A DNA stretch of 64,000 bases, taken from the NCBI RefSeq assembly GCF_036711975.1, contig NC_091972.1, forward strand, positions 6,267,001 to 6,331,000, in the 5' to 3' direction. This stretch comes from Onthophagus taurus (Eukaryota; Arthropoda; Insecta; Coleoptera; Scarabaeidae). Of the stretch, positions 10,651 through 63,835 are shown one piece after another. Every line of letters starts with the position of its first letter. Within the stretch, counting starts at the first letter, position 1. The position numbers and the translations under genes were made by a program. The notes below the pieces were generated by a model that was given only the letters and a program-made list of their open reading frames with translations, was not told where the DNA came from and ran no database searches.

Positions 10651-11619
10651 AAGAATTTCCATATATTCAATAAAAATAAAATTGTATACGTTATTCTGCA
10701 AATAAAACATCGTCCTCCACCTTTACCATATTCAATCACTTCGGTGGTAAAAGGATTTTAATTCGTTCTCAGCACGAAGTAAACTGACATAATTTCATGT
10801 AATGCGTACAACTTTTAACTCGGCCTATCTCTATTTTAAAGATTTCGAAACGTTTGTAAACAATTTAACAACAGTGTAGTTACACCTTTATGACTAATAA
10901 CATTTAAAATAAAAATTCCATCATCGGACAGAAACATTTTAATCTCTTAATTGTTCTAATTGTGAATTAGTTTTAATTAAATGTAATTGGAGTAAATTAA
11001 GCTGAGTGAATAAAGTAAATTATCTGGCGTGGAGTGAGTCTCTTTTTCTCTCTCTTGGGAATTAAAACTGTATCAAGGGTTTTTGGTGGAAAGAAACGAA
11101 GGTCTTGCTGATTTGTTTGTCGGTCGACGATGTCGTCTCTTGCGGTTGGTCTCCTTGATCTCGTTGTTATCTGAGAGGCTCGGCAAGTCACAATTTTGAG
11201 CAGACAGACTGTCACCTCGTTTTCTTGACCCAACAACGCCCGTTCTCGCCCAACAACATAATTTTTATTAAGGAGGGGCTATCTAGTACTTAAAAAAAAG
11301 TTTACAAAAATTAATTTATTAAAAAAAAAAAATCGTAACTATATTAATCTATATCTAATTAAAAGAAACACATTAGGATTAAAAGTAACCTTAATAGTAT
11401 CTTGCAATTACATTAATGATTTTAATGATGATTAATATACATCATTTAATAAACAATCTTAATTAATTTCTAATTAATATGTGTTAATGAATCATTTTGT
11501 AAAAACACATTTGAATTATTGTAATGTTGTAAGCTTTTATTTTCAAAAGAATTTTCAAATTTCTTAAATTAGGGATGTGGTGATATTATGAATAAATATC
11601 TGGGAAAGTGACGTTTTTT
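10651..11619. other. region upstream of tRNA-Sec
   Basis: No protein gene seen. A GC-richer block at 11030-11260 contains a 79-codon minus-strand frame and two copies of CCCAACAAC, but no recognisable domain; it may be a transposon remnant. Just before the tRNA, AATAAATAT at 11590-11598 lies about 22-30 bases upstream of the mature 5' end. That is where animal selenocysteine tRNA genes carry a TATA element for pol III transcription. Confidence 0.35.
11590..11598 (+). promoter_or_regulatory. TATA-like element of the tRNA-Sec gene
   Basis: AATAAATAT, centred about 26 bases before the tRNA 5' end. Animal tRNA-Sec genes are known to use an upstream (type 3-like) pol III promoter with a TATA box and a proximal sequence element rather than relying only on internal boxes. 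I could not confidently place the proximal sequence element. Assignment rests on position and base composition. Confidence 0.45.
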
Positions 11620-11706
11620 GCCCAACTGACCTCTAGTGGTCTAGGGTGTAGGCTTCAAACCTACAGTCGATTGACGTCGAAGTGGTTCGATTCCACCTGT
11701 TGGGCG
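11620..11706 (+). tRNA. tRNA-Sec (anticodon TCA)
   Basis: An 87-nt selenocysteine tRNA that decodes UGA as selenocysteine together with a SECIS element and the eEFSec factor. The ends GCCCAAC and GTTGGGC pair. A six-base anticodon stem TGTAGG/CCTACA closes the loop CTTCAAA with TCA at 11655-11657. A long variable arm can pair TCGA with TCGA, and the T arm contains GGTTCGATTCC. Length, the CTAGTGGTCTAGGGT D region and the GGCTTCAAACC core are the signature of eukaryotic tRNA-Sec rather than a suppressor tRNA. No CCA is encoded. A T-run for pol III termination follows near 11731. The copy shows no obvious damage. Confidence 0.95.
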
Positions 11707-11721
11707 GCACCACCGTATTTC

Positions 11722-11740
11722 AAAAAAAAATTTTTTAATT
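11722..11740 (+). terminator. pol III terminator T-run after tRNA-Sec
   Basis: A run of six T residues follows an A-run about 25 bases past the tRNA 3' end. Runs of four or more T on the coding strand end pol III transcription. Confidence 0.6.
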
Positions 11741-12488: not shown

Positions 12489-15400
12489 ATGGCGATATTC
12501 GAGAAACGAACCGCGAATAAGGTACTGATAGATGATACCGAAAGTCTTTCCTGCGTAATTGAAAATTGGTTTAACACCAATGGTCACACGGTAAGAAATT
12601 ATTTTTACATATCCCCACTTTATTTTCTTCAATTGGTGTGTTTTTTTTTTGTTATAGGAGTTTGTAATTAGGGTACAAAGGGGCCCATTTTCTGATAAAA
12701 CTTGGCGCGTCCAAAAACGTTACAATGACTTTGTTAAATTGCATTCAGCACTTCAAACATCCGGTATTCATTTACCGTTACCACCTAAGAAAATTGTCGG
12801 AAACATGGACCCGAAATTTATTGCAGAAAGACAACAAGCTTTACAAAAGTACCTAAATATTATAGTCATGAACCCAATACTTGTATCATCGTTACCAGCT
12901 CGATCTTTTATTGATCCTGCTAATTATTGTCAACCTTTTAGAGGTTAGATAAATATTTATTTATATACATGAATTGATAATACTTAATTATGATTATTTT
13001 ATCTTTTAAGAAATTGCATTACAACATGTTTCGCTTGCATTAAGAGGCGAGGTCGGTTGGGAAGTTGTCTCACCATTAACAGAAATTGGTTGGCGCCTTC
13101 GTAAACATTATTATCATGTACGATGTAAAAATATACAATCTAAGGAGGAATTATGGGCTGGTTGGATTGATTATGGTCCTGATAAACACTTAGATGATAA
13201 AGATATGCATGCCATATTTAAAAGTATTAGTCAAATACAAGTATGAAACAAAATAAATCATAAAAAAAACATTTATACCATTTTAACAAATTTTTTTTAG
13301 CATCCATATATTTATCCAATAGAAATGTGCCTGTGTACAGATGTGGGGGCTTTAGTAATCCGAACTAGTCATAAAAATGGATCATTAAGAGACGTTTTAT
13401 ATGGTGTTAAACCAAAACAGTCATTTATGAAAAAATATGGTAACCCAAAAGGGCATAAACCGTTAGAAATATCGCAAATCGCCTTGTATGGGCGTCAAAT
13501 ACTTGAAGCATTAAAATTTTTAAATGAAAAAGGTTTACCTTACGGCCACTTACACACCGGTAACATAATAATTGATAACGATCGCGTTAAATTGCTTGAT
13601 ATTGAAAATGGGATTATCGGTGTACCAAGTTTTTATCGCCCTTATTTTATGCAACACAAAAAAATTCATTCGTTACAAGCGATTGACGTTTATTGTTTTG
13701 GACATACTTTGTATGAAATGACTTTCGGATCCCCGCTACATGAAAGCGTTGTTGAACATCTTCCGGGAGAGTGTAATCCAATTTTAAGATCAGTTCTCGA
13801 ATCAATTTTATCGCCAGAAGCTTGCAAATCGGGAATTCCAACTATTGATGATCTTCTAAAACACGCTTTTTTTGCTAATATCAAACCCACAATGATGTTA
13901 TCAAGTGATAAAATACACTTGAAAATACCAACTTCGACAAAAGAACAAATCAAAAAGATTATTATCATGGTTGAAGATCGATTGAAGGATGAACAAAAAA
14001 TGGTTCGTAGTCAGAAACGATTGGTTAAAGTTCAAGAAATGATGAGTTCTGAAGAAGAAAAGAAGAAACAAAGATCAAAAATGGTAATTTTGGTTTTATT
14101 TATGTTGAAATAATGCGTGATCGCTTTATAAATTTTGTATTTTATTTATTACAAAAACAGTACAAAAGCGTAACATAGAAAATAATCTACGGAACTATTT
14201 TCTGTTACGTTTTTGTACTCTTTGCAACTCTAAAAAAAAAATTATTAAAAATTGAACGCATGTGGCGCCATCTGTTGGGGATATTTTAAAATCATTCAGC
14301 TAAGAACCAAACCACTAGAATACAGTTGGATTTTTTTTTGGGTATATAATATAAAAGCCCTAACCCTCAACTAACGTTCCGACTGATAAACGAGATTTTC
14401 GTTTTCATCCCTCTAAAAATATAAAACTTCTCAGAATAGACAGGCTCAAACTATTGAAAATTGTTTGGTGTCTGTCCACTTTTATCACAGAACACTGTTT
14501 CTGTAAGTCCCGGCATAAATTTAATCACTAAAACTAGAGACAAGAAAATAATCTAGAGTTTGATTTTGTACTTTTAAACTGGTTTTTATTTTATATAGAA
14601 TTTAAGTCTAACCAGTTTCGGCCCTTGACCAACTTCAGAGACTCTACAAATAGATTAACATCTCTCATCATGTTAAAAAGGATCACATATCAAAGTCGAA
14701 ATCAGATTATTAGTTACTAATTTACAAAATTAAAGTTTAAAAAGTTGTAAAATGAAAGTAAGGACGAAGTGTTACAAGTTTACAGGTTAAAATTTAAGAA
14801 CGCTCTTTTTTAACAAAAGAAATATTAAGAAACTTGGGAAAAATTCAAGAATCATGTGGCTTAAAAATCGACGATTTTTTTTAATCAATGTGAAATGACT
14901 CAAAAAACACGTTAAAAATAAAAAGAAAGTGCTGAAAAGTGACTAACACTAGATTAACTTCAGTTATAACAAGTTTTATATGATAACTAACTTCAAGTTT
15001 AAAATGTCAACCTCAATTTTGACACATTAAAAATCCTATAAAATGAGTACAAACACGACATATTTATCTTCAATTTTAATGAAGTTATGGTCAACTTCCG
15101 GTTAAGAATGTCAACATCAATTTTGCCATATTTGTAATCGTCGTGAAAAATCCTTTAAAATGAGTTCAAACAAGATACGTTTAATTCCAATATTACTCGA
15201 GATATAAGAACTTCCGGTTTGAAATGTCAATGTCATTTTGACATATTCTTAATTTTTATAAACTGTCTTAATAGACTGCCTAAGTCTGACGTCACAGAGA
15301 TGGGAGATACTGACTCGCCAAAATAGGTATAAGTCGCCAAAAAATGTCATTTGAAATGTCGTCACTTTGTTTATTTTATTTTAACACTAATGAAAAATTG

Positions 15401-63068: not shown

Positions 63069-63835
63069 GAAACCCCAGTGAACCTTCGTGGTTTAAGACC
63101 TCACTTGCTCCCAAGGAGCATGCGACAGATCTGGTTAGCCATAATGGCTTTTTTCCTCACCTTGACTATGTGGGAGTTCCAGTTTAATTTACTGTCTAGT
63201 ATTACCCATACGTATTTGACGTCTGTTTTGAGGTTAATAGTTGTTGTTAATTGTAGCTTTCTTCTCCGAGTGAAAGGGACTATTTCGACTTTGTTTGGAT
63301 TCGAACTGTAATCTATACCATTTGATCGTCGACGGATGTATGTCTTTTGCGTATAGAGCTTTCTTGATGGATTCGTAGAAGGTGTTATCTAAAGCACCCT
63401 TTATGTTTATAAAAGCACATAAGGCTATCTCTTTGGCTGCAATTGTCTCCTCTAAAATGCTTGTCAATGCATGAAGAGCAGTAATTATTGATTTTGCTTT
63501 CTGATAAGCATGTTGACTTGGATGGAGTGGATTAGTGACAAGCTCTCCATTCCTAAGGTATTGGTCAATTACCTTTTCCATCCATTTGAGGAGAAATGAA
63601 GTTAGGCTAATTAGTCTGTATGCCTTGGTATCGGCGTTTAAACGCCTACGACCTTTAGGTGTAAAAACCACCTTTAGGTGTAAAGACCACCTTTAGGTTC
63701 CTACATAGTGTAGGTATACTATAGCTGAAACTATAGCTTGTTGTATATAAAGATATTATTACTGGGAGCAGGTCTTCTATGCCTTTTTGCAGAAAAATAG
63801 GTAGAATTTGATCCCCTCCAGGTGATTTTAAGTAG
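63063..63835 (-). mobile_element. reverse-transcriptase fragment of a Jockey-like element
   Basis: Minus strand from ~63830: KSPGGDQILPIFLQKGIEDL, then VVFTPKGRRRLNADTKAYRL with ISLTSFLLKWMEKVIDQYLR (RT fingers), LHPSQHAYQKAKS and EIALCAFINIKGALDNTFYE, the palm-A region; the usual F.DI.GAFD has become FINIKGALD. After an internal deletion comes KYVWVILDSKLNWNSHI with RMLLGSK (thumb, usual YLGV.LD..L.W..H). The catalytic YxDD segment is deleted. Dead element; it probably belongs with the RNase H piece at 61797-62225. Confidence 0.85.

Follow-up and report, generated by a model that had tools for sequence, protein, structure and literature searches.

A complete tRNA-Sec gene in the window

The window (the whole 64-kb stretch of Onthophagus taurus DNA that was analysed) contains a complete tRNA-Sec gene (Table 1). 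It is the only tRNA gene that ARAGORN found in the window, called as tRNA-SeC with anticodon TCA, and RF01852 (tRNA-Sec) was the sole Rfam match when both strands were scanned at the Rfam gathering thresholds: the match covers 11620–11705 with 75.7 bits (E = 9.7e-14; cut-off 47 bits), and the alignment spans the full model (1–91) end to end. According to the RF01852 structure line, the molecule has a 9-bp acceptor stem with a single U-U mismatch, a D arm made of a 6-bp stem and a 4-nt loop, a 6-bp anticodon stem (UGUAGG/CCUACA) carrying the loop CUUCAAA, a 5-bp variable arm and a 4-bp T stem. The base at the discriminator position is the G73 expected of the family, the role of which in tRNA-Sec we take from the available part of PMC5330540. 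The gene thus combines a score above the Rfam cut-off with TCA, the acceptor, T and D stems and a long variable arm. The original prediction had read here an intact tRNA-Sec with TCA, a six-pair anticodon stem and a long variable arm, and had proposed holding a covariance-model score against the tRNA-Sec cut-off; both the ARAGORN call and the Rfam score bear it out.

Table 1. Positions of the tRNA-Sec gene, its flanking features and two partner loci (positions without a contig label refer to the window)
Feature	Position	Strand	Basis or description
Upstream stretch (-41 to -22), candidate part of a type 3 (snRNA-type) Pol III promoter	11579..11598	+	Sequence comparison
tRNA-Sec gene, anticodon TCA, discriminator G at 11706	11620..11706	+	ARAGORN; Rfam RF01852
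T6 (TTTTTT), 25 nt past tRNA-Sec	11731..11736	+	Sequence
Downstream gene: PX-domain frame 12658-12948, kinase-like frame 13301-14113	12658..14113	+	Pfam
SepSecS locus	C3:25678230-25684167	minus	Gene model of five exons, 680 aa
SPS2 locus	C8:959227-960564	minus	In-frame UGA

A genome-wide search with RF01852 (290,825,966 bases in 33 contigs; 53 of 8624 first-look candidates scored) gave ten matches at E <= 0.001: the window gene at 75.7 bits, a runner-up at 47.1 and eight more at 40.4–43.8. Eight of these loci were excised, and ARAGORN called the window gene tRNA-SeC and the other seven tRNA-Ser. As the model evidently also matches tRNA-Ser genes, one could suppose that the window gene is itself a tRNA-Ser-like or suppressor tRNA. 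The seven tRNA-Ser loci, however, score 43.4–47.1 bits (the runner-up among them) against 75.7, and the 6-bp D stem, 4-nt D loop, 9-bp acceptor stem and TCA are features of tRNA-Sec (for the D arm, according to the text of PMC5330540 at hand), which makes a tRNA other than tRNA-Sec extremely improbable.

Flanking elements and neighbouring genes

Upstream of the gene, 16 of the 20 bases at -41 to -22 are identical to -42 to -23 of a U6 gene, the genome's one strong copy and the single U6 gene compared; only 1 of 400 shuffled pairs reached 16/20. This stretch closes with a TATA-like ATAAATA at -28 to -22. The tRNA-Sec genes of vertebrates have an external, snRNA-type promoter, and the U6-like stretch fits such an arrangement, suggesting that RNA polymerase III probably uses snRNA-type elements upstream of the beetle gene to transcribe it. 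The accessible text of PMC4671959 also mentions U6 genes alongside those for selenocysteine tRNA, in connection with a factor restricted to vertebrates. The T-run that had been noted as a terminator is present downstream (Table 1) and is likely the Pol III terminator.

The next gene downstream, which we take to be PXK-like, lies outside the selenocysteine system. Its PX frame scores 62.3 bits, while its kinase-like frame falls under the cut-off of Pkinase (27.1 vs 31.7 bits) and over that of PK_Tyr_Ser-Thr (25.2 vs 23.1). Pfam was run on seven further frames of the window, and six gave matches: PX, kinase-like, GIP1_N (sub-threshold; presumably a lingerer-like gene), ubiquitin hydrolase, a reverse transcriptase fragment and TB2/DP1. 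To our knowledge none of these six is related to selenium. The reverse transcriptase fragment (63234-63692, minus strand; RVT_1 28.6 bits, cut-off 29.6) probably represents the remains of a retroelement.

Partner genes of the selenocysteine pathway

tRNA-Sec is charged with serine by seryl-tRNA synthetase, the serine is phosphorylated by PSTK, and SepSecS converts the phosphoserine to selenocysteine using selenophosphate from SPS2; eEFSec and SBP2 then bring selenocysteine to the UGA codons of SECIS-bearing mRNAs. That the window gene would be transcribed, charged and used in this way we infer from the genes. All five machinery genes sought, namely PSTK, SepSecS, eEFSec, SBP2 (one exon) and SPS2, were located, just as the original prediction had suggested checking. 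The machinery genes sit on other large contigs (C1, C3, C6 and C8), and the window itself lies at 6.27–6.33 Mb of a 40.8-Mb contig of the same assembly. Both facts speak against a contaminating contig that would have brought in the tRNA of another eukaryote; nothing was found in favour of that explanation, and we give it almost no weight.

PSTK was found at a single place, as one frame of about 250 aa. Its two best NCBIfam families are both PSTK, with scores under the curated cut-offs (96.2 vs 382.35 and 103 vs 290.5 bits); this PSTK is diverged. For eEFSec, the fourth-domain model PF21131 gave 76.6 bits (cut-off 27), and the best two of 216 PDB matches to the GTPase frame are eEFSec chains (E = 4.1e-47). 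One of nine L7Ae places reads as the RNA-binding region of SBP2; this single exon is weakly scored (21.8 bits, or 22.3 with its neighbours; cut-off 22.1) and shares 44% identity over 43 residues with a piece of human SBP2.

Two SPS loci are present, SPS1 with Arg at the Sec position and SPS2 with TGA there. The SPS2 model (four exons, 368 aa) is interrupted by no stop except the TGA at residue 29, and matches TIGR00476 with 232.8 bits (cut-off 125). A UGA at this position is shared with the SPS1-UGA readthrough genes of Hymenoptera and some Paraneoptera, which, in the part of PMC4561486 available to us, carry a GGG-UG[C/U] hexanucleotide that insect SPS2 genes do not have. The beetle differs from them in that its UGA is followed by GGC TGT and the hexanucleotide is absent, in that a separate SPS1-Arg exists, and in that a SECIS candidate lies 3' of the gene (see below). 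Taken together, these three differences lead us to read the UGA gene as SPS2. Contig C8 (21.07 Mb) carries SPS2; according to the available text of PMC10942260 the X chromosome is Scaffold 8, so SPS2 would be X-linked if contig and scaffold numbering agree.

A SepSecS locus predicted to encode two diverged copies in one chain

All five matches of the SepSecS genome search fall in one locus. A second search placed four of six matches in the same locus, the other two (18.4 and 18.5 bits) being under the cut-off of 21.1. Within the locus, 484 codons form a single open frame, and phmmer against PDB 4zdl, which we take to be human SepSecS, splits this frame into four parts that form two pairs. Frame residues 5-93 and 206-257 correspond to human 43-131 and 282-333; then 276-321 and 331-482 correspond to human 12-57 and 118-269. 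The match of piece 276-321 is weak in phmmer (5.2 bits), and tblastn gives the same piece E = 1.7e-4. Judged by these alignments, the order of the frame is copy 1 followed by copy 2 of SepSecS.

The complete predicted chain of 680 aa is encoded by five exons with GT-AG introns, the last exon lying about 3.7 kb downstream beyond repeats. As its start we took the closest ATG in frame, on the far side of what we presume to be a short intron, and a further exon upstream is possible. The model scores 570.9 bits with TIGR03531 (cut-off 224.85) and 414.9 bits with PF05889, above the curated cut-off; residues 337-674 align to 117-460 of 3hl2 and residues 3-104 to 34-132.

The two copies retain different motifs. 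Copy 1 has kept GEREGR, the motif that surrounds human Arg313 (Tyr-Pro-Gly-Arg) and the phosphate loop (human Gly96-Lys107, the P-loop in the part of PMC10164584 at hand), where 8 of 12 residues are identical; it lacks the Thr-Gly motif, and Asn replaces the PLP lysine, Lys284. Conversely, copy 2 has kept the Thr-Gly motif and the PLP lysine, lacks human 58-117 and hence the whole phosphate loop, and places Lys opposite human Arg313 in the alignment. The usual build of SepSecS, in which one catalytic domain holds loop and PLP lysine together, is therefore not that of the predicted chain. Unlike human SepSecS, the product of our gene model for the sole SepSecS locus detected carries two diverged copies within a single predicted chain.

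Aligned along the catalytic domain, copies 1 and 2 give a local score of 79 (300 shuffles: mean 38.8, best 68). Their low identity suggests that the duplication is old. Within the frame, the middle 696 nt remain open in 0 of 1000 shuffles (mean 19 stops), and their base composition shows a codon-like periodicity, for which 2.1 kb at the start of the locus excerpt served as control. An open frame with such periodicity after an old duplication is not expected of a decaying gene. We also considered that the middle of the frame might be an intron that is open by chance; this was ruled out by its SepSecS-homologous stretches, by the periodicity and by the shuffles. An extra splice form that joins the first part straight to copy 2 is possible.

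In a small literature search we found no published mention of a SepSecS duplication in insects, including in the accessible part of PMC11602143. The fusion may be spread more widely, or may already be on record in sequence databases.

Selenoprotein genes and candidate SECIS elements

The search for selenoprotein genes covered SelK, SelH/SelW (through Rdx) and SPS. Two genes have an in-frame UGA at the Sec position, SPS2 and SelK. At its default threshold the Pfam SelK model found nothing in the genome, the best E value lying just above the threshold. At E <= 10 it gave four places, of which the best (27.5 bits, above the cut-off) is the SelK gene and the other three (16.2–17.6 bits) are all below the cut-off. 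Assembled from four exons, SelK has 94 aa and scores 80.2 bits with PF10961; its UGA is at residue 92, third from the end, within the C-terminus Gly-Gly-Gly-Sec-Ala-Arg. The Rdx model (PF10262) gave one locus, which we read by eye as SelT and which is a Cys form.

Candidate SECIS elements lie 3' of both genes. Downstream of SPS2, the fold of a 96-nt stretch has an energy of -25.6 kcal/mol (z = -3.97), which 0 of 200 shuffles equalled; by eye, ATGA faces TGAT across the helix and AAA lies in the apical loop. The SelK candidate spans 124 nt with a fold of -32.4 (z = -2.86) that 2 of 200 shuffles matched, and by eye we recognise in it a UGAC/CGAG quartet and an AAA preceding a small apical helix; the fold of its inner 101 nt is no better than that of shuffles (z = 0.46). 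A SECIS pattern scan placed its clear best site 3' of SPS2 with score 19, which 1 of 122 window segments of equal length also reached (four reached 18), and missed the SelK element described from its fold. Rfam SECIS_1 found nothing in the SPS2 region at E <= 10, and nothing genome-wide at E <= 1 in a search that scored 150 of 5914 candidates and was the only one to cover SelK. Between the SelK stop codon and the candidate (about 1207-1118 of the SelK locus excerpt, minus strand) there are also a 10-bp hairpin and a very long, A+T-rich hairpin of about 25 bp.

The tRNA-Sec gene as part of a probably working system

The assembly contains the tRNA gene, its partner genes, and SPS2 and SelK with their in-frame UGAs; by these genomic signs the tRNA is probably functional. 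We put at about 95% the probability that this is the single functional tRNA-Sec gene of O. taurus and that the beetle makes selenoproteins. The original prediction had called selenoprotein synthesis probable, and the five machinery genes together with the UGAs of SPS2 and SelK agree with it.

Many insect lineages have lost the trait (the available parts of PMC5330540, PMC4561486 and PMC2500217), PSTK is diverged and SepSecS has an unusual build, all of which would suit a relic tRNA in a species that lost its selenoproteins recently. Arguing the other way, SepSecS, SPS2 and SelK, each modelled exon by exon, have open frames, GT-AG sites and a terminal stop; the UGAs of SPS2 and SelK fall at Sec positions; and the tRNA scores far above the cut-off. 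We regard a relic as very unlikely. The second option of the original prediction, a trait lost only recently, is not supported, as the three models contain neither an unexplained stop nor a broken splice site.

A possible mode of action of the predicted fused SepSecS

In PLP enzymes of fold-type I the active site lies between two subunits; in aspartate aminotransferase, for example, one subunit provides the lysine site and the other subunit contributes residues 70 and 292. We tentatively propose, at somewhat less than even odds, that the predicted SepSecS chain arose by tandem duplication and complementary loss, forms a one-chain pseudo-dimer with a single composite active site, and runs selenocysteine synthesis in the beetle. 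Copy 1 would supply the phosphate loop and the Tyr-Pro-Gly-Arg motif, and copy 2 the PLP lysine and the Thr-Gly motif. Were the loop and Arg313 turned towards the lysine of the neighbour, the two half sites could make one good site, so that one chain would hold a single composite site instead of two equal ones. The fusion would then fix in one chain a half-of-sites asymmetry that in the human enzyme is seen only on tRNA binding. According to those parts of PMC10164584 and PMC11602143 at hand, human SepSecS is a dimer of dimers that binds up to two tRNAs and in which one dimer is non-catalytic, which suggests that a build with fewer sites is tolerable. Should the proposal hold, the locus would be a natural experiment on which residues of two subunits form one active site. 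It would further imply that the trait can persist on a rebuilt core enzyme in a Sec-using animal that has very few selenoproteins.

Relation to published work

The tRNA-Sec, SPS2, SelK and complete machinery of O. taurus were reported in 2017 (PMC5330540, in its available part, using Secmarker). The tRNA-Sec finding, as well as the conclusion on selenoproteins that the original prediction had drawn, is thus already known. The Secmarker tRNA-Sec is presumably the same molecule; added here are its chromosome-scale position, its flanks and its partner genes. The same portion of PMC5330540 reports SPS2 from Nicrophorus vespilloides and infers separate losses of Sec in Cucujiformia, Agrilus and Priacma. 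A tRNA-Sec gene on a chromosome-scale assembly supports what has been published on beetles, namely that selenocysteine was retained in some of them and lost in Tribolium and its relatives, and therefore that loss in beetles occurred more than once.

Finally, five contig starts of the assembly (C1, C2, C5, C8 and C11) carry (TTGGG)n telomere arrays and not the usual insect (TTAGG)n; 33 contig starts were read, of which three were only N and two mostly N. The motif (TTGGG)n has been reported from beetles and from O. taurus database entries (accessible text of PMC8233369), and also from a lacewing, a damselfly and a bee (PMC12564400, likewise in part).
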